Shown one piece after another: positions 23,054 through 44,812 of a stretch of 64,000 nt of DNA. How positions within the stretch are numbered: position 1 is the first letter of the stretch; each line of letters starts with the position of its first letter. The stretch lies in contig NZ_LT629766.1 of NCBI RefSeq assembly GCF_900105315.1, forward strand, positions 3,658,001 through 3,722,000. The letters run 5' to 3'. Position numbers and translations under genes: made by a program. The notes under the pieces were generated by a model. That model was not told the origin of the DNA. It worked only from the letters and a program-made list of their open reading frames with translations, and did no database searches. The DNA is from Brevibacterium siliguriense (GTDB lineage Bacteria; Actinomycetota; Actinomycetes; Actinomycetales; Brevibacteriaceae).

Positions 23054-24438
23054 ATGGCAGCACAGAAGCACACTCAGACCCGGGTGGCGTTCGCGACGAT
23101 CGTCGGCACGAGCATCGAGTGGTACGACTACTTCCTCTATGCGGCGGCCTCAGGGCTGATCTTCAACCAGCTCTTCTTCAGCCCGCTCGGATCGACGCTC
23201 TCGACCATGGTCGCCTTCGCGACGGTCGGAATCAGCTTCCTCTTCCGCCCCTGGGCGCCTTCCTCGCCGGACACTTCGGCGACAAGCTCGGCCGCCGGGT
23301 GGTCCTCATCATCACCCTCATCGCCATGGGTGCTGCAACAGCACTCATCGGCTTCCTGCCGACCTTCGAATCCGCCGGCGTCCTGGCACCGATCCTGCTC
23401 ATCGTCCTGCGCATCGTCCAGGGAATATCGGCGGGCGGAGAATGGGGCGGAGCCGTTCTGCTCGCCGTCGAGCACGCCGATGAGAAGTCACGCGGACTGC
23501 GCGGATCCTTCCCGCAGATCGGAGTGTCCATCGGACTCCTGCTGTCCTCCGGTGTGCTCGCCCTGATGACGTCGATAGCCCCCGGCGATGCCTTCCTCGA
23601 ATGGGGCTGGCGAGTGCCGTTCTTCCTCTCCATCGTGCTCGTCTTCATCGGCTACTGGATCCGCCGCGGAGTCGAGGAATCCCCCGTCTTCCACGAGATC
23701 GCCGAGCGCAAGGAGCAGGTGACGAACCCGCTGGGCACGCTCATCAAGGGCCACTGGCTGCTAGTCATCCTCGCGTCGCTCGTCTTCATGGGCAACAACG
23801 CCGCGGGATACATGACCACCGGCGGATACATCCAGAACTATGCCACGGATCCGGCCGGACCCATCGGCCTCGAGCGCGGTCCCGTGCTCTGGGCCGTCGC
23901 CGCCTCGGCGGTGTCCTGGCTGGTGGTGACGATCATCGCGGGCGCTGTCTCGGACAAGATCGGGCGTCGAAACACCTACATCCTCGGCTGGGTGCTTCTG
24001 CTCGTCGGCATCTTCAGCCTGTTCCCGCTGGTCAACACCGGCTCGGTGGGCATGCTCCTGCTCGGGCTGGTCGTCCTCACAGTCGGCCTCGGCTTCACCT
24101 ACGGCCAGCAGCCGGCGATGTACGCCGAGCTGTTCCCCTCCAGCGTCCGCTTCTCCGGGGTCTCGGTCTCCTATGCGATCGGATCGATCCTCGGCGGCGC
24201 CTTCGCTCCGACGATCGCGAAGGCCCTTGTGTCGTCGACGGGAACGACCGCCTCGGTGGCGGTGTACCTGGGCGTCGTCGCCGTGCTCGCTCTCGTGGCG
24301 ACCCTGCTGCTGCGCGATCGCACCGGCATTCCGCTCGGTCCCGACCACGAGGACGAGCAGGCGGTGAGTCCGATCATCGGGATCGGCGCCCACCGGCCAC
24401 GGACGGAATCCGGCACCGAGGCGGCACCGCACGACTGA
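23054..24438 (+). pseudogene. MFS transporter (metabolite:H+ symporter type), interrupted by a frameshift
   Basis: The start ATG at 23054 (after CAGGAG) opens a frame reading TRVAFATIVGTSIEWYDYF, the classic first helix of the MHS family (ProP/ShiA/KgtP type). After GISFLFRP the frame breaks. The continuation LGAFLAGHFGDKLGRRVVL lies one frame over, and the protein then runs intact to the stop at 24438. A run of four C at 23248-23251 has one base too few: with five the frame reads FRPLGAFLAG. Twelve helices would result, about 461 residues. It is divergent from the hpa operon and probably imports the aromatic acid. It may be a real null allele or an assembly error in a homopolymer. Confidence 0.85.
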
Positions 24439-33642: not shown

Positions 33643-36600
33643 TTGCTGCACACCGAAACCGACCTCGACACGCTCACCGCCCAGTCGATCGACACCGTCC
33701 GCCGGTGGTTGCGAGTGTCGACGTCGATGACCACGGCTAAGAACCCCGCGGCCGAACGCCTCTCTGCCGTCCTCTCCGACGACAACGGGCTCGACTTCAC
33801 CGTCGGATTCGTCGATCGTGTCGTGCGCACCGATGACGTCCACGCCGCCGCCGACGCGCTGACCGAGGTCGGCAAGCTCGCACCCGAAACGATGTCGTAC
33901 CTCGACCGCGCGCAGATCAAGGCCGGTGCCGCGCTGGCCAAGATCGCCCCGCAGGTCGTCGTCCCCGCCGCCCGAACCCGCCTGCGTCAGATGGTCGGTC
34001 ACATGGTCGTCGACGCCCGCGATAAGCAATTCGGCAAGACCGTGGCCGCGCTCACCTCCGATGGTCACCGGCTCAATATCAACCTCCTCGGCGAGGCCGT
34101 GCTCGGCGACGGAGAAGCCGACAACCACCTGGAGCAGACCCACCGGCTGCTCGCCCGCGATGACGTCGACTATGTGTCGGTGAAGGTCTCCTCGGTGGCC
34201 TCGCAGATCTCGATGTGGGCATTCGACGAGACCGTCGACTATGTCGTCGACCGCCTCCGCCCGCTCTACAGCCAGGCGGCCAAGGCTCCGGCCGGCGCGA
34301 AGTTCGTCAACCTCGATATGGAGGAGTACCAGGATCTCGAGCTGACGATCGCCGTATTCACCCGTCTGCTCTCCGAACCCGAGTTCAAGGACCTCGAGGC
34401 CGGGATCGTCATCCAGGCCTACCAGCCCGATGCTCTCGGTGCGGTGCAGCGGCTGAGTGAATTCTCCGCCCGCCGCGTCGAGAACGGCGGCGTCGGGGTC
34501 AAGGTCCGCCTCGTCAAGGGCGCCAACCTGGCGATGGAGACTGTGCACGCCGAGATCGCCGGCTGGCCAGCGACGACGTGTGATTCGAAGCAGTCCACGG
34601 ATGCGAACTACAAGCGGGTCCTGCACTGGCTGTTCACTCCGGAGCGGATGAAGGGGCTGCGCATCGGCGTGGCCGGGCACAACCTCTTCGACATCGCCTT
34701 CGCCCACCACCTCTCCGTCGAACGCTCGGTGACCGACCGCGTCGAGTTCGAGATGCTCCAGGGCATGGCCAGCGAGCAGGCGGCGGCCGTGACCGAGGAC
34801 GTCGGCGACCTCCTCCTCTACGTTCCCGCCGTGCACCCGAAGGAATTCGATGTCGCGATCTCCTACCTCGTGCGCAGGCTAGAGGAGAACTCGGCGTCGG
34901 AGAACTTCATGTCCGGAATCTTCGACCTCGCCAACGGCAATGAAGTGTTCAAGCGCGAAGCCGACCGGTTCACCGCGGCGGTCAAGCAGCTCGAATCGAT
35001 CCTCGAGGCCGAGGGTGAGACCGCACCGGCCCCGAATCGCCACCAGAACCGGTCGACCGAAACGCTCGGTGAGACCGTAGTGCCGACTCAGTTCTTCAAT
35101 GAGCCCGACACCGATCCGGCTCTTCCCGCCAACCAGGAATGGGTGCGCAGGATCATCGCCGAGGCGACCGCCCCCGACTACCTCGACGATCGTCCGAATG
35201 CGCCCAAGATCGAATCCACGGACGAACTCGATGAGATGATCGCCCGCGGTCGCGCCGCCGCTGCGGACTGGCGTGCCCTCGGCGCCGCCGGTCGGGCCGA
35301 GATCCTCCACCGGGCCGCTGACATCTTCGCTGCTCGTCGTGGAGAGTTCATCGCTGTCGAGGCCGCTGAGGTGGGCAAGATGCCGTCGCAGTCCGACCCC
35401 GAGGTGTCCGAGGCCATCGACTTCATCCGCTACTACGCGCTGAATTCGCTCGAGCTCGAGAACCTCGAGGGCGCGACCTTCACTCCGGACGAGATGGTCG
35501 TCATCACTCCTCCGTGGAACTTCCCCGTGGCGATCCCCACCGGCGGCACCGTTGCGGCGCTGGCGGCCGGGTCCGCTGTCATCCACAAGCCGTCGGGGCC
35601 GACGCCGCACTGTTCGGCGCTCATCATCGACTGCCTGTGGCAGGCGGGAGTGCCCAAGGACGTGCTGCAGCTGTGCGCACCGATCGAGCGGGAGCTCGGT
35701 CAGCACCTCGTCTCGCATCCCGATGTCGACCGGGTCATCCTCACGGGTGCTTCGGAGACCGCGGCGATGTTCAAGTCGTTCCGTCCCGAACTCCACGTAA
35801 ATGCGGAGACCTCCGGTAAGAATGCCCTGGTCATCACTCCGGCGGCGGACCGGGACCTCGCCATGGCCGACCTCGTGTACTCGGCCTTCGGACATGCCGG
35901 GCAGAAGTGCTCGGCCGCCTCGTTGGGGATCATGGTCGGTTCGACCTACGATTCCGAGCGCTACCGTCGCCAACTCATCGATGCCGCCTCGTCGATGGTC
36001 GTCGATTGGCCGGCGAACCTCGCCTCCACCATGGGGCCGCTGACGGAGGACCCCTCGGACAAGCTGCGTCGGGCGCTGACGACTCTCGAGCCCGGCGAAT
36101 CCTGGCTGCTCGAGCCCAAGCAGCTCGACGATACGGGCCGCCTGTGGAGCCCGGGAATCAAGGACGGAGTCAAGCCCGGTTCGTTCTTCCACCTCACCGA
36201 GGTCTTCGGTCCGGTGCTCGGTCTCATGCATGCCAAGGACCTCGATGAGGCCATCGAGTTCCAGAATGCCGTGGACTTCGGCCTCACCGGAGGCATCCAT
36301 TCCCTCGACCCCGAGGAGGTCGCCACCTGGCTCGATCACGTCGAGGTCGGCAACGCGTACGTCAACCGCGGAATCACCGGGGCCATCGTGCGTCGGCAGT
36401 CGTTCGGCGGCTGGAAGCAGTCCTCGGTCGGACTGGGGTCGAAGGCCGGCGGCCCGAACTACCTTATGCTCTTCGGCCACTTCACCGATTCCGGCGACCA
36501 GGATCTCGAGGCGGCTAAGGCCGATGACAAGCGCTGGTTCGAGGCCGAGTTCGGCGCGGCGAAGGACCACACGGGACTGCGCGCGGAGGCGAACATCTTC

Positions 36601-37050
36601 CGCTACCGTCCCCGCCCGGTGACTCTGCGCGTCACTGCCGAGGCGAGCCTGTTCGATCTCGAACGCTCCCTGCACGCGGCGCGCACGGTGGACTCGCCGG
36701 TGCAGTTGTCCGTGGCAGAGGATGTGTCCGCCGAGGTGAAGATCGCAGTGACGAATGCCGACGTACCTGCCCGCACCGAAACTGCCGCCGAGTTCGCCGA
36801 GATGATCGGTCAGGGTCGCTATGACGACACCGTGGGTGCCCGCATCCGCGTTCTCGGTCGATTCGAGGACGAGCTGCTGGCGGCGGCCGCGCCTCGCCCC
36901 GAGGTCGCGATCATCGATGAGCCGGTGACCACATCGGGCCGGGTGGAGCTGCGGTACTTCGTGCAGGAGCAGGCGGTGTCGATGACCCTGCACCGCTTCG
37001 GCAACCCGAGCCGCGACTTCCACACCCTGGCAGCCCAGCTCAAGTCCTGA
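33643..37050 (+). CDS. putA: Bifunctional proline dehydrogenase / glutamate-semialdehyde dehydrogenase
   Basis: 1135 residues from a TTG start at 33643, chosen because GAAGGAG stands five bases before it; GTG at 33607 lacks a ribosome-binding site. It oxidises proline to glutamate in two steps. The proline dehydrogenase barrel occupies about 90-470 (YVSVKVSSVASQISMW, KFVNLDMEEYQDL, GVKVRLVKGANLAMET, FEMLQGMASEQ). The dehydrogenase domain occupies about 540-1000 (ITPPWNFPVAIPTGG, ILTGASETAAMF, NAETSGKNALVITPAAD, GHAGQKCSAAS with the catalytic cysteine, NAYVNRGITGAIVRRQSFGG). About 140 C-terminal residues form the extra domain of long PutAs. There is no DNA-binding ribbon-helix-helix. Confidence 0.95.
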   Translation: MLHTETDLDTLTAQSIDTVRRWLRVSTSMTTAKNPAAERLSAVLSDDNGLDFTVGFVDRVVRTDDVHAAADALTEVGKLAPETMSYLDRAQIKAGAALAKIAPQVVVPAARTRLRQMVGHMVVDARDKQFGKTVAALTSDGHRLNINLLGEAVLGDGEADNHLEQTHRLLARDDVDYVSVKVSSVASQISMWAFDETVDYVVDRLRPLYSQAAKAPAGAKFVNLDMEEYQDLELTIAVFTRLLSEPEFKDLEAGIVIQAYQPDALGAVQRLSEFSARRVENGGVGVKVRLVKGANLAMETVHAEIAGWPATTCDSKQSTDANYKRVLHWLFTPERMKGLRIGVAGHNLFDIAFAHHLSVERSVTDRVEFEMLQGMASEQAAAVTEDVGDLLLYVPAVHPKEFDVAISYLVRRLEENSASENFMSGIFDLANGNEVFKREADRFTAAVKQLESILEAEGETAPAPNRHQNRSTETLGETVVPTQFFNEPDTDPALPANQEWVRRIIAEATAPDYLDDRPNAPKIESTDELDEMIARGRAAAADWRALGAAGRAEILHRAADIFAARRGEFIAVEAAEVGKMPSQSDPEVSEAIDFIRYYALNSLELENLEGATFTPDEMVVITPPWNFPVAIPTGGTVAALAAGSAVIHKPSGPTPHCSALIIDCLWQAGVPKDVLQLCAPIERELGQHLVSHPDVDRVILTGASETAAMFKSFRPELHVNAETSGKNALVITPAADRDLAMADLVYSAFGHAGQKCSAASLGIMVGSTYDSERYRRQLIDAASSMVVDWPANLASTMGPLTEDPSDKLRRALTTLEPGESWLLEPKQLDDTGRLWSPGIKDGVKPGSFFHLTEVFGPVLGLMHAKDLDEAIEFQNAVDFGLTGGIHSLDPEEVATWLDHVEVGNAYVNRGITGAIVRRQSFGGWKQSSVGLGSKAGGPNYLMLFGHFTDSGDQDLEAAKADDKRWFEAEFGAAKDHTGLRAEANIFRYRPRPVTLRVTAEASLFDLERSLHAARTVDSPVQLSVAEDVSAEVKIAVTNADVPARTETAAEFAEMIGQGRYDDTVGARIRVLGRFEDELLAAAAPRPEVAIIDEPVTTSGRVELRYFVQEQAVSMTLHRFGNPSRDFHTLAAQLKS

Positions 37051-37123
37051 CCCCAATTACTACCTGACGGCGGCTCAGATACCTCGCGCGAGGTTGCTGA
37101 GCCGCCGTCAGGTAGTTCTGGGG
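37051..37123. terminator. Very long hairpin after putA
   Basis: A perfect 20-bp stem, arms 37059-37078 and 37097-37116, carries a small inner palindrome ACCTCGCGCGAGGT in its loop. It is extended outward by CCCCA (37051-37055) against TGGGG (37119-37123). It begins directly after the putA stop. No T run follows. Most likely the putA terminator; it could also be a palindromic repeat element found elsewhere in the genome. Confidence 0.75.
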
Positions 37124-37179
37124 CAGGGGAAGCTGTGTAGGATGAGTGTCACCCGAGGCACTCAGTGGACTGCCCGACT

Positions 37180-37234
37180 GTTCACAAGCTGTTCACATCT
37201 TCGCCGCTGTCGTCGATGAGTGAGCCGCTAGGGT
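37180..37234 (+). promoter_or_regulatory. PHO-box-like direct repeat and -10 box before the secreted nuclease
   Basis: GTTCACAAGCT (37180-37190) is followed at once by GTTCACATCTT (37191-37201). Two GTTCAC(C/A)NNNN units in direct repeat with 11-base period match the PhoP binding sites described in Streptomyces. TAGGGT (37229-37234) is a possible -10 box, and the repeat would sit directly upstream of the -35 position, right for activation under phosphate starvation. Confidence 0.6.
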
Positions 37235-37298
37235 GCAAGGGACCGCGCACGTGGATCGTCACGATGTGCACAGACGCTCATCCGCCCGAAAGGCTCCC

Positions 37299-39893
37299 AT
37301 GAAAGTCACGACCACCCTGTCCTCCGCCGCGGCGCTCAGCCTCGTCGCGGGTCTGTCCCTCCCCTTGTCGCCGGCTATCGCAGCGGACACCGCAGCCGAC
37401 GACGCCCACATCTCCGAGATCGCCTACACCCTCGCGACCGACTTCATCGAGGTCGCAGCAGATCCCGGCACCGACATCTCCGGGTGGACCTTCGGATCGG
37501 TGACTCGCGGCGGCAGCGTCCAGGCGCAGGAGAACACCGTCACCGTGCCCGAGGACACGACCGTCGGCGACTCCGGCGCCGTGGCCATCGAAGTGCCGAT
37601 CACGAACTCCGTCAAGGCCGGTTCGGCCGCCGACGGAGAGTACGGCTCCAGCGCCTTCGTCATCGACGAGAGCGGCGAGCTGGTCGACTTCCAGCAGATC
37701 GGCGGCGTTGTCGACGGCAAGGGCGTCACCGGCACGAAGAACACCTTCACCCCCGCACCCGTCGTCGGTCAGGAAGCTGAGCCGACCGGTGCGGCCGCCG
37801 CCGGTGGCCAGTCGATCCAGCTCATCGGCGACACATGGAGGTCAGCGGCTCCCACCCCGAACGCCCTCCCCGACGGCAGCGACGACGGCGGTGAAGACGG
37901 TGACACTCCCGAAGGCGTCACCTCGATCGCCGACATCCAGGGCACCGGCGATGCCAGCCCCGTCCAGGGCAAGACCGTGACCACCCGCGGTGTCGTCACC
38001 GCCGCCTACCCCGAGGGCGGGCTCACCGGCTACTACATCCAGACCCCGGGCACCGGTGGAGCCGACCGTGCCGCCGGTGCAGCATCCGACGGCATTTTCA
38101 TCTACTCCCCCGACACCGTCGCCGATATCAGCATCGACGACCACGTCGAAGTCACCGGGACCGTGTCCGAACACTACGGTCAGACCCAGATCTCCGTATC
38201 CGCGTCCGGTCTCAAAACGGTCGACGAACCCGCCGAGGCGATCAAACCGGTCGAGGATGCCTTCCCCGCCGGAGACGAGAAGCGCGAATCCCTCGAGGGC
38301 ATGCTCCTGCAGCCGAGCGAATCGCTGACCGTGGCTGACAACTACAACACGAACACCTATGGTGAGGTCGTCCTCGCCACTGGTGAGGGCACCCTCGACC
38401 AGCCCACCGACGTCCACCGCCCCGGGACGCCTGAGGCGAAGGCCCTGGAAGCCGAGAACCTCGACCGTGAGGTCGTCCTCGACGACGGTGCGACCGTGAA
38501 CTTCCTCAAGGCCGACAAGGACGTCCCCCTGCCCTACCTCAGCCAGGAGGCTCCCGTCCGCGTCGGTGCGCAGGCGAACTTCACCTCCCCGGTTGTGCTC
38601 GGCTTCGATCACGAGAAGTGGCGGTTCCAGCCGACGAGACGTCTGACCGGGGACAACGCCGAGGCGGTGCAGCCGACCACCTTCACCGACACCCGTACCG
38701 AAGCCCCCGAATCTGTGGGCGGACAGGTCAGCCTCGCCAGCTTCAACGTCCTCAACTACTTCACCACCACCGGTGACCAGTTGGACGGCTGCGAGTACTA
38801 CGACGACCGCGAAGGCAACCACATCACCGTCCGCGGCGGCTGCGATGCCCGCGGTGCCGCGAACGCCGAAAGCCTCGAACGTCAGGAGACGAAGATCGTC
38901 ACCGCGATCAACAAGCTCGACGCTTCGGTCATCTCGCTCATGGAGATCGAGAATTCTGCCGTCTTCGGCAAGGACCGCGATGATGCGCTGGCAACCCTGG
39001 TCAAGCGCCTCAACGAGGCGGCCGGTACAGAGAAGTGGGACTTCGTCGAATCCCCTGACGCCGTCCCCGCCGATGAGGACGTCATCCGCACCGCCCTGAT
39101 CTACCAACCCGCCGAGGTGGCTCCACAGAACGAGTCGACGATCCTTGATGATCAGGATGCGTTCTCCAATGCCCGCGAACCCCTGTCCCAGGCGTTCGCA
39201 CCGAAGGATGGCTCCGGCGAGGTCGAGAAGGACAAGACCTTCGTGACGATCTCCAACCACTTCAAGTCCAAGGGTTCGGGATCAGGTCCGGGCAATGAGG
39301 ACTCCGGCGATGGTCAGGGCGCGTCGAACGCCGACCGTGTGAAACAGGCCGAGGCGCTCGTCGGCTTCGCCGATGACCAGCAGGAAGCGGCCGACAGCGA
39401 TCTCGTCTACCTCCTCGGCGACTTCAACTCCTACACTCAGGAAGATCCGATGCAGGTCTTATTTGAGGCCGGATACAAGGACATCGCGGCGGAGAAGACG
39501 GACGAATCCACCTATGTCTATGGGTCGCGCACCGGCAGCCTCGACCATGTCCTCGCTCTCGACGCCTCGGACGAAGCCGACGGTGCAGGCACGGACGCGA
39601 CAGCATTCGGGTCCGTCACCGGAGCCGATGTCTGGAACATCAACTCGGTCGAATCCCTGGCGCTCGAATACAGCCGATTCAACTACAACATCGCTGACCT
39701 CTACGCACCGGATCAGTTCCGAGCCTCCGACCATGATCCGGTCGTCGTCGGTCTCTTCGACTCCTCGGACGAGGGCGGGGACGATGACGCCGGAGCGGAA
39801 GCTGGGAAGAACGGCAAACACTGGGGCAGCCGCGACGGCGAGCATCCCGGAGGCAAGAACGCCGGGAAGAACGGTCGCCACAACGGCTGGTAA
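37299..39893 (+). CDS. Secreted ExeM/NucH-family endonuclease
   Basis: 864 residues. The signal peptide (about 1-30) ends at SPAIAAD. An N-terminal lamin-tail-like domain follows (HISEIAYTLATDFIEVA, SGWTF), then an OB-fold module as in YhcR (VQGKTVTTRGVVTAAYPEGG, GYYIQTPG, DHVEVTGTVSEHYGQTQ; about 230-310), then the nuclease domain (about 480-840): SLASFNVLNYF, ISLMEIENSA with the metal-binding glutamate, VYLLGDFNSY, LDHVLAL and ASDHDPVVVGLF. The C-terminus is glycine-, asparagine- and lysine-rich (GKNGKHWG, GGKNAGKNG) with no wall-sorting signal, so the enzyme is probably released. Extracellular DNA would supply phosphate, in line with the PHO-box upstream. ATG at 37299 follows AAAGG. Confidence 0.9.
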   Translation: MKVTTTLSSAAALSLVAGLSLPLSPAIAADTAADDAHISEIAYTLATDFIEVAADPGTDISGWTFGSVTRGGSVQAQENTVTVPEDTTVGDSGAVAIEVPITNSVKAGSAADGEYGSSAFVIDESGELVDFQQIGGVVDGKGVTGTKNTFTPAPVVGQEAEPTGAAAAGGQSIQLIGDTWRSAAPTPNALPDGSDDGGEDGDTPEGVTSIADIQGTGDASPVQGKTVTTRGVVTAAYPEGGLTGYYIQTPGTGGADRAAGAASDGIFIYSPDTVADISIDDHVEVTGTVSEHYGQTQISVSASGLKTVDEPAEAIKPVEDAFPAGDEKRESLEGMLLQPSESLTVADNYNTNTYGEVVLATGEGTLDQPTDVHRPGTPEAKALEAENLDREVVLDDGATVNFLKADKDVPLPYLSQEAPVRVGAQANFTSPVVLGFDHEKWRFQPTRRLTGDNAEAVQPTTFTDTRTEAPESVGGQVSLASFNVLNYFTTTGDQLDGCEYYDDREGNHITVRGGCDARGAANAESLERQETKIVTAINKLDASVISLMEIENSAVFGKDRDDALATLVKRLNEAAGTEKWDFVESPDAVPADEDVIRTALIYQPAEVAPQNESTILDDQDAFSNAREPLSQAFAPKDGSGEVEKDKTFVTISNHFKSKGSGSGPGNEDSGDGQGASNADRVKQAEALVGFADDQQEAADSDLVYLLGDFNSYTQEDPMQVLFEAGYKDIAAEKTDESTYVYGSRTGSLDHVLALDASDEADGAGTDATAFGSVTGADVWNINSVESLALEYSRFNYNIADLYAPDQFRASDHDPVVVGLFDSSDEGGDDDAGAEAGKNGKHWGSRDGEHPGGKNAGKNGRHNGW

Positions 39894-39896
39894 CAC

Positions 39897-41039
39897 CTAG
39901 TCGGTGACGGCCACCTGCCCCCGCATGAGCACGCGTGCCGTGCGGAAGAGGGAGGTGGCCGTCACCGTGTCCGCATCGCACACGGCACCGGCGGTGACGA
40001 CGCCCGAGGGGGTAGCCAGACGCACTTCCGGCCCGACGACCCCGGGCCGGGCACGCCGAATGATGCGGTTGATGATCGTGTCCGGGATCTGTGCGGCCGC
40101 GGCCAGGCACATGGCTCCGGTCCCGGGTACGGCCTTGTGCGTCTGCCCCATGGAGATCATCCGCACGGGCAGGTCGGCCTCCTCGGCGGCCAGGGTCGTT
40201 CCGTCGAGCAGTCGGGTGGGCTCTGGGGCGGTGACCACGGCGACCTTCGGGACGACCTCAGGGGCCTCCTCCGGCGTCGTGCACAATCCCATCCTGACTG
40301 CAGCGTTGCGGCGCAGCTCCGCGAGCATGCCCATCGCGTGCGAGTTCGCGTCGATCTCCTCCGGAGATTCGGTGCCCTTGAGCCCGACCGCCGCGCCCGG
40401 GACGATGACGACGGGCAAGGTGGCATCGACGAGGCTGACCTCGAACATCACCCCACCGGCCGTGATCGATTCCGAGGGCTGGCCCGTCGGCAGCAGTCCG
40501 GCGGTGCGGCTGCCGGCGGGGTCGGGATAGATGAGCTCGACGGGCGAACCCGTTCCGCTGACTCCGGGCAGCACCAGGTCTCCGGAGACCTCGGCCTGCC
40601 CGTCGCTGACGGTGAGTCCCACGTCGACGAGTTTCTGCGTGTTCGTGTTGAACAGGCGAAAGACGTGCCATCCGTCGGCGGCGCTGAGCAGCCCGGCCGA
40701 CAGGGCGAAGGGAACGACCCCGGACGACAGATTTCCGCAGTTGCCGGAGTAGTCGACGGTCGCCTCGGTGACGGAGACCTGACCGAAAGTGTAGTCCAGG
40801 TCGACCCCGTCCCTCGCCGAGGCGGCCACGACGACGATCTTCGACAGGGAGGAGATACCCCCACCCATTCCGTCGAGCTGACGGCCGAACGGATCCGGCG
40901 AGCCCATCGCCGAGGCGAACAGCCTGTCCCACGTCGTCGTGTCACCGTCCGAGCCCAGCGGAGGCAGTGCGGATTCGACGAAGAATAGGCCCTTGCTTGT
41001 GCCGCCGCGAACGAATGTGGCGTCGATCCACTCAGTCAT
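39897..41039 (-). CDS. PrpF/GalD-family isomerase
   Basis: 380 residues, diaminopimelate-epimerase fold. Family marks are ATFVRGGTSKGLFF at the start, MGSPDPFGRQLDGMGGGISS, YSGNCGNLSSG with a catalytic cysteine, and QTHKAVPGTGAMCLAAA. Relatives are the 2-methylaconitate isomerase PrpF (propionate use) and the 4-oxalomesaconate tautomerase GalD (gallate and protocatechuate 4,5-cleavage). With an aromatic-acid transporter and an aldehyde dehydrogenase upstream, a role in aromatic breakdown is more likely than in propionate use; no methylcitrate genes are near. ATG at 41039. Its stop lies three bases from that of the converging nuclease gene. Confidence 0.85.
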   Translation of the reverse strand: MTEWIDATFVRGGTSKGLFFVESALPPLGSDGDTTTWDRLFASAMGSPDPFGRQLDGMGGGISSLSKIVVVAASARDGVDLDYTFGQVSVTEATVDYSGNCGNLSSGVVPFALSAGLLSAADGWHVFRLFNTNTQKLVDVGLTVSDGQAEVSGDLVLPGVSGTGSPVELIYPDPAGSRTAGLLPTGQPSESITAGGVMFEVSLVDATLPVVIVPGAAVGLKGTESPEEIDANSHAMGMLAELRRNAAVRMGLCTTPEEAPEVVPKVAVVTAPEPTRLLDGTTLAAEEADLPVRMISMGQTHKAVPGTGAMCLAAAAQIPDTIINRIIRRARPGVVGPEVRLATPSGVVTAGAVCDADTVTATSLFRTARVLMRGQVAVTD

Positions 41040-44041: not shown

Positions 44042-44812
44042 ATGGCGAACTCCCCTTCCGGCGACTCGATGATCGATCGGCTCGTGCGCGTTCTCGCGTC
44101 GTTCGACCCGGATCATCAGAGCCTGAGCACCGACGAGATCGCCGAGCGTGCCGCGCTGCCGAAGTCGACGGCCTACCGACTCATCGGAGAGATGATGCGT
44201 CACGACCTGCTCCAGCGCGATCCCACTGGCCGCATCAGGATCGGAGTCGGAATGTGGGAGCTGTCCAATCGCGCCTCGGACGCCGTCGATCTGGCGTCAG
44301 TCGCAAGGCCGCACATGATGGGCGTGCATGAGTTCGTCGGTGAGAACACACAGCTGGGCATCCTGCGGGAACGCGAGGTGCTCATCATCGAGCGCATGTC
44401 GGCGCCCAATGCAGTCGTCCACCGCTCGAAGACTGCCGGTCGACTGCCGGCACATGCGTCTTCGTGCGGGCTCGTGCTGCTGGCGTATGCACCCAAACAT
44501 GTGCGCGAGGCGTATCTGCGCGGGCCCCTGTCCGCGATCACGGAGAAGACGACGACGGATCCAGCCGCTCTGCGCACGATGTTCACCTCGATCCGCTCTC
44601 ACCATTTCGCGGAGCTCTCCGGCCATATCGATGAGGGCACGACGGGAATCACGGTTCCCGTCTTCGACGCCGGCGGGGCGGCGATCGCCGGACTCGGGGT
44701 CGTCATCGATTCGGAGCACCGGAAAGGCGTGCCCGCGATCATGCGGGTCCTGCGGACCGCCTCGGCGAGGATCACGCAGGATCTTGCGGCCGATCGTCGC
44801 TTCGCCGACTGA
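44042..44812 (+). CDS. IclR-family regulator
   Basis: 256 residues. Winged helix: IDRLVRVLASFD, LSTDEIAERAALPKSTAYRLI, then the wing DPTGRIRIGVGMWEL. The effector domain has VLIIERMSAPNAV, LPAHASSCGLVLLAYAPKHV, and GTTGITVPVFDAGGAAIAGLGVV, as in regulators of aromatic acid breakdown (PcaR/PobR type). ATG at 44042. Divergent from the aldehyde dehydrogenase operon; the promoter word recurs before pobA, so it may control both clusters. Confidence 0.92.
   Translation: MANSPSGDSMIDRLVRVLASFDPDHQSLSTDEIAERAALPKSTAYRLIGEMMRHDLLQRDPTGRIRIGVGMWELSNRASDAVDLASVARPHMMGVHEFVGENTQLGILREREVLIIERMSAPNAVVHRSKTAGRLPAHASSCGLVLLAYAPKHVREAYLRGPLSAITEKTTTDPAALRTMFTSIRSHHFAELSGHIDEGTTGITVPVFDAGGAAIAGLGVVIDSEHRKGVPAIMRVLRTASARITQDLAADRRFAD

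Follow-up and report, generated by a model that had tools for sequence, protein, structure and literature searches.

The nucH locus and its tandem repeat

The 64,000-nucleotide stretch of DNA analysed here (the window) derives from a host genome of 4.02 Mb in one contig, and its relatives in named collections are Brevibacterium species. A gap of 248 bp separates nucH, which encodes a predicted extracellular nuclease (Table 1), from a long upstream gene that ends at 37050 and is putA-like by reading only. The ExeM/NucH extracellular endonuclease model NF033681 matches residues 229-819 of the nucH product with 589.3 bits against a cut-off of 300. Pfam Exo_endo_phos_3 remained below its cut-off (19.1 against 27). 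The translation contains the motifs LGDFN and SDHDP, which we take to be tied to DNA degradation, and its N terminus, read by eye, resembles a signal peptide. A preliminary description of the locus had proposed a DNA-degrading enzyme; placement in the ExeM/NucH family by NF033681 agrees with this as a predicted activity. Phage records searched with the nuclease yielded four partial matches only, each below 60% identity, and Rfam returned no match over 36500-40500.

Table 1. Features of the nucH region and further period-11 repeats, in positions of the window.
Feature	Position	Strand	Remark
Candidate PHO-box unit 1, GTTCACA	37180-37186	+	conserved in close-clade orthologous promoters
Candidate PHO-box unit 2, GTTCACA, period 11	37191-37197	+	conserved in close-clade orthologous promoters
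-10-like TAGGGT (TANNGT in relatives)	37229-37234	+	31 bp past unit 2; spacing as at pstS
Probable ribosome-binding site GAAAGG	37288-37293	+	function inferred
nucH, ExeM/NucH-family nuclease, 864 aa	37299-39893	+	NF033681 match; signal-peptide-like start
Places of period-11 perfect 7-mer repeats	16260; 24411-24412; 37178-37180; 44431-44433

The promoter region of nucH carries two direct GTTCACA units around the 4-bp spacer AGCT, and the ATG at 37299 lies 101 bp past the second unit; transcription would be expected to begin near 37240. No TTGACA-like -35 was apparent in the nucH promoter when the sequence was read by eye, and the GAAAGG near the nucH start is present in all 33 close orthologues. 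The preliminary description had noted two direct units with an 11-base period, positioned just upstream of the expected -35. The repeat is as described, and its position is consistent with the conserved TANNGT -10 that follows at 31 bp, as it does at pstS.

Between the putA-like gene and nucH lies a near-perfect 56-bp palindrome, CTACCTGACGGCGGCTCAG...CTGAGCCGCCGTCAGGTAG (37060-37115), which may be a two-way terminator or a REP-like element. The palindrome region is a dispersed repeat with 80 matches in the genome, pairing into about 40 places. One of its arms occurs within 350 bp upstream of nucH at no more than two mismatches in 13 of the 33 close relatives, own genome included; in the remaining close relatives it is not recognisable, with six to nine mismatches.

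A perfect repeat of period 11 is by itself not rare. Perfect 7-mer direct repeats of this period have nine start positions in the window, at four separate places (Table 1), and the gap before nucH contains perfect 7-mer repeats at period 11 only, among the periods 8-20 scanned. Like the Streptomyces PhoP PHO box, GTTCACC-N4-GTTCACC, the nucH repeat consists of two 7-bp units with a 4-bp spacer; it shares six of seven bases per unit with this consensus (two mismatches) and is its only match in the window at up to two mismatches. With the limit raised to three mismatches, 10 matches are found in the window where 5.9 +/- 2.6 would be expected; as many turn up in 7 of 100 shuffles, and such loose PHO-box matches are not clearly above expectation. 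The exact sequence TTCACA-N5-TTCACA is confined to the nucH site genome-wide, and one mismatch adds five more places. Because the repeat alone is not rare, proof must rest on the comparison with relatives.

Conservation across Brevibacterium and the layout shared with pstS

Orthologues of the nuclease are encoded in 51 of 57 Brevibacterium genomes, and upstream DNA was analysed for 50 of them (G025 was left out). They form two groups, 33 close orthologues with 72-100% protein identity and 17 distant ones with 55-62%. Upstream of the close orthologues, RTTCAY-N5-RTTCAY is exact in 32 of 33 and has one mismatch in the last (G028), a level that shuffled close-group sequences reach in 0.6%; the first base of unit 1 is G in 32 of 33. 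Across 14 dereplicated close sequences, mean information per column is 1.91 bits in the repeat units, 0.66 in the 4-bp spacer, 1.01 in the 31-bp gap and 2.0 in the TA..T of the -10, of which the TA and GT columns are invariant. Both nucH and pstS show a peak for period 11 only (8-16 tested) and for one -10 distance only (16 tested). Nearly invariant units combined with a variable spacer are the pattern of a protein-binding site, as which the repeat presumably serves. The window counts above, with perfect period-11 repeats at four places and loose matches near expectation, are in line with a chance repeat devoid of any regulatory role. Such an origin appears extremely improbable to us and is already contradicted by the aligned promoters, with units near-invariant around a variable spacer in the 14 dereplicated relatives, conservation in 33 of 33 and a fixed spacing to the -10.

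The pstS promoter of the same genome has the layout seen at nucH, with ATTCACT-N4-ATTCATG located 31 bp before TAGCGT. We searched the 57 Brevibacterium genomes for the composite RTTCAY-N5-RTTCAY-N32-TANNNT at zero mismatches and obtained 85 matches in 52 genomes (49 at pstS, 32 at nucH and four elsewhere), compared to a single match for a reversed-pattern control. The composite is thus common to nucH and to the pstS box of this genome and 48 others, and in its exact form it is missing from the pstS promoter in 8 of 57 genomes and from one of the 33 nucH promoters of the close clade. As the composite was modelled on the nucH and pstS promoters, matches there are partly by construction; its rarity elsewhere in the 57 genomes is independent evidence, as is the lack of a comparable peak at other periods or distances. 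Within this genome, the exact composite has two matches only, pstS and nucH, and therefore occurs at no other Pho gene; one mismatch gives three matches. Automatic pstS starts were wrong in several of 30 loci (G007; too far upstream in G003, G018, G024, G041 and G047), which lowers the pstS counts in the shuffle, period/spacing and base-7 tallies and leaves the composite genome scan unaffected.

The genes behind the four other composite matches are presumably polysaccharide pyruvyl transferase-like (two) and GlgE-like (two). In two related genomes (G010, G020) the exact composite stands directly before the polysaccharide pyruvyl transferase-like gene, which probably acts on a cell-wall polymer and is a possible further Pho target. 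At the GlgE-like gene of G011 and G030 another TAGGGT, noted by eye, lies closer, and the match there may therefore be due to chance.

The Streptomyces consensus was dropped as a regulon finder because it misses the pstS box. At up to two mismatches it retrieved 43 places in the whole genome versus six for the reversed control, and many of the 30 loci examined among these 43 lie inside or beside unrelated genes. The sole perfect GTTCACC-N4-GTTCACC of the genome, at contig position 3509373-3509390, is found on the strand of a 485-aa open frame, about 45 bp ahead of its 5' end. Near the contig ends, three copies of one DNA stretch each contain a PHO-like repeat with one mismatch, which suggests repeated sequence there.

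Beyond the close clade the signal is weaker. The RTTCAY box is present with one mismatch in 6 of 17 distant-clade nucH promoters (1.2% of shuffles) and exact in none; the other 11 have no box at up to one mismatch. Five of the 17 carry the one-mismatch composite with unchanged spacing to the -10 and units such as GTTCACC. In other genera of the order, matches to the nuclease were obtained in 126 of 198 genomes, and 39 upstream regions were taken in which the match reached near the protein start. Six of these 39 have a box at up to one mismatch, as do 0.5% of shuffles and, on the opposite strand, two of the 39; the one-mismatch composite with unchanged spacing occurs in two, so that the predicted box signal is partial outside Brevibacterium. 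The preliminary description had named conservation in related species as a check and loss of the repeat from orthologous promoters as the outcome that would speak against it. No such loss is seen in the close clade, where every promoter retains the repeat at up to one mismatch; the expectation of conservation holds there and fails for most of the distant clade.

Candidate regulators and base 7 of the units

Ten genes for OmpR-type winged-helix regulators scored 76-101 bits in the genome, and one more lies at the cut-off. One encodes a RegX3-type regulator and adjoins genes for a SenX3-type kinase and a divergent phoU, both named by reading. The best solved match of this regulator is M. tuberculosis RegX3 (2oqr, E 7.7e-105). 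Streptomyces PhoP is presumably an orthologue of RegX3. Orthologues of the Brevibacterium regulator are encoded in 56 genomes out of 57, all but G049, whose assembly is 89% complete and carries the box. No RTTCAY box was found at up to two mismatches in the phoU-senX3 gap. M. smegmatis uses SenX3-RegX3 as its phosphate system (PMC4415409). From its sequence and gene neighbourhood, RegX3 is the best candidate for the regulator that would act at the nucH box.

Two more regulators resemble M. tuberculosis PhoP, an OmpR-family paralogue that is not known to be tied to phosphate in M. tuberculosis. One has a patchy distribution (27 of 57 genomes at a minimum identity of 75%, 30 of 57 at a minimum of 62%). 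Since 11 of the 33 genomes with a boxed nucH lack it, it cannot be the regulator that the box requires. The second occurs in all 57 genomes, so that by distribution it stays a candidate.

Base 7 of the units is where nucH and pstS differ. It is A in both units of all 33 close-clade nucH sites. Among the 24 counted pstS sites, unit 1 ends in C at 21 and in T at three, while unit 2 ends in T, G or C; an A in unit 2 does occur in several pstS boxes of the distant clade (e.g. G037, G038 and G054). In the distant-clade nucH boxes, the first unit reads GTTCACC, GTTCATG or ATTCATC and the second is degenerate. An A at base 7 is expected of a site for a regulator like M. tuberculosis PhoP or C. glutamicum PhoR. 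This brings in the proposal that the nucH repeat is the operator of a regulator of the M. tuberculosis PhoP type that prefers TTCACA, in which case nucH would answer another signal, or phosphate via a PhoR-like regulator. According to PMC4832192, the repeats recognised by M. tuberculosis PhoP are TCACAGC units set 4 bp apart, and both its tandem binding mode and the strictness of that spacing are established. The best artificial site of C. glutamicum PhoR is TTCACAGG-N3-TTCACAGG on the other strand, as given in the consulted sections of PMC3353115. TTCACA is found in the close-clade nucH units and not in unit 1 of the counted pstS sites, and the genome encodes two such regulators, one of them present throughout the genus sample. 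We nevertheless consider the proposal unlikely. The variable paralogue is dispensable, as the boxed genomes that lack it show, and at the nucH sites of this genome TCACA is not followed by GC as it is in the M. tuberculosis site: with TCACAAG and TCACATC, the units match TCACAGC-N4-TCACAGC at bases 1-5 and depart from it at the sixth. Moreover, nucH and pstS have the period and the distance to the -10 in common, and the nucH boxes of the distant clade have GTTCACC or GTTCATG in place of TTCACA.

Another member of the OmpR family, e.g., MtrA, or a repressor might also occupy the site without any link to phosphate. The genome offers the ten strong OmpR-type genes and the one at the cut-off, and regulators of this kind generally bind to direct repeats (PMC4832192). 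However, the MtrA repeat quoted in the available text of PMC3353115, (A/G)TAACAAT, does not match the nucH box, and the box lies upstream of the -35, where MtrA sites activate and do not repress, according to the same text. Together with the identical box layout at pstS, this makes control of nucH by such a regulator very unlikely.

One regulator whose operator has changed in strength is the simplest account of base 7. A more speculative idea, which we rate as rather doubtful, is that the nucH operator has been retuned in Brevibacterium, either in a handover from RegX3 to the universal PhoP-type regulator or as an affinity step that delays the nuclease after the transporter. It is based on the Streptomyces-like boxes of those distant species that keep one and on the A fixed at base 7 in the close clade, unlike unit 1 of pstS.

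Proposed phosphate control of nucH

We propose, with a probability of roughly 0.8, that the nucH repeat is a PHO box through which a phosphate regulator raises nucH expression at low phosphate. The likeness to Streptomyces PhoP sites put forward in the preliminary description gains support from the conservation of the box, the pstS layout and the regulator gene beside phoU, all of them features of sequence. Starting from the observed site, its conservation, the geometry at pstS, the regulator gene and the nuclease family, we infer the identity of the regulator, activation, the starvation response and the activity of the enzyme as follows. Under phosphate shortage the regulator would become phosphorylated, and a pair of its monomers would occupy both units head to tail. 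Located just upstream of a weak -35, the bound dimer might then recruit RNA polymerase to the TAGGGT promoter. NucH would be made, exported and degrade extracellular DNA and RNA, and other enzymes could release phosphate from its breakdown products.

The closest known system is nucH of C. glutamicum, which is induced by phosphate starvation and whose promoter is bound by phosphorylated PhoR (available part of PMC3353115); the gene is also tabulated in the portion of PMC4448153 consulted. Both species would combine a secreted nuclease gene, an OmpR-type regulator and a phosphate-starvation regulon, the Brevibacterium side being predicted. The binding sites compared are the PhoR sites described in PMC3353115: these are likewise tandem repeats with a period of 11, and the best artificial one shows TTCACA cores when read on the opposite strand. 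In C. glutamicum, however, PhoR is separate from the RegX3 homologue CgtR4 (same source), while RegX3 is the best candidate here. In Streptomyces, a PHO box just upstream of the -35 is in the activator position, as outlined in the accessible part of PMC7244524; unlike the Streptomyces box, the nucH box has A instead of C at base 7 of both units. Within Brevibacterium, the pstS box differs from that of nucH in unit 1, which is usually ATTCACC.

The putative PHO-box switch at nucH belongs to a known type, and its Brevibacterium instance appears to be new. Among titles and abstract openings, no paper with a Brevibacterium PHO box as its subject was found in a search that covered few subscription journals, which is no proof of priority. 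The finding would make nucH a predicted Pho-regulon member in Brevibacterium, where the two genes pstS and nucH share a promoter signature found repeatedly in the genus. It would also extend the C. glutamicum nucH precedent to another actinobacterial group. The nucH and pstS operators form a natural pair that differs mainly at one base per unit and may thus be well suited to the question of cross-talk between OmpR paralogues.
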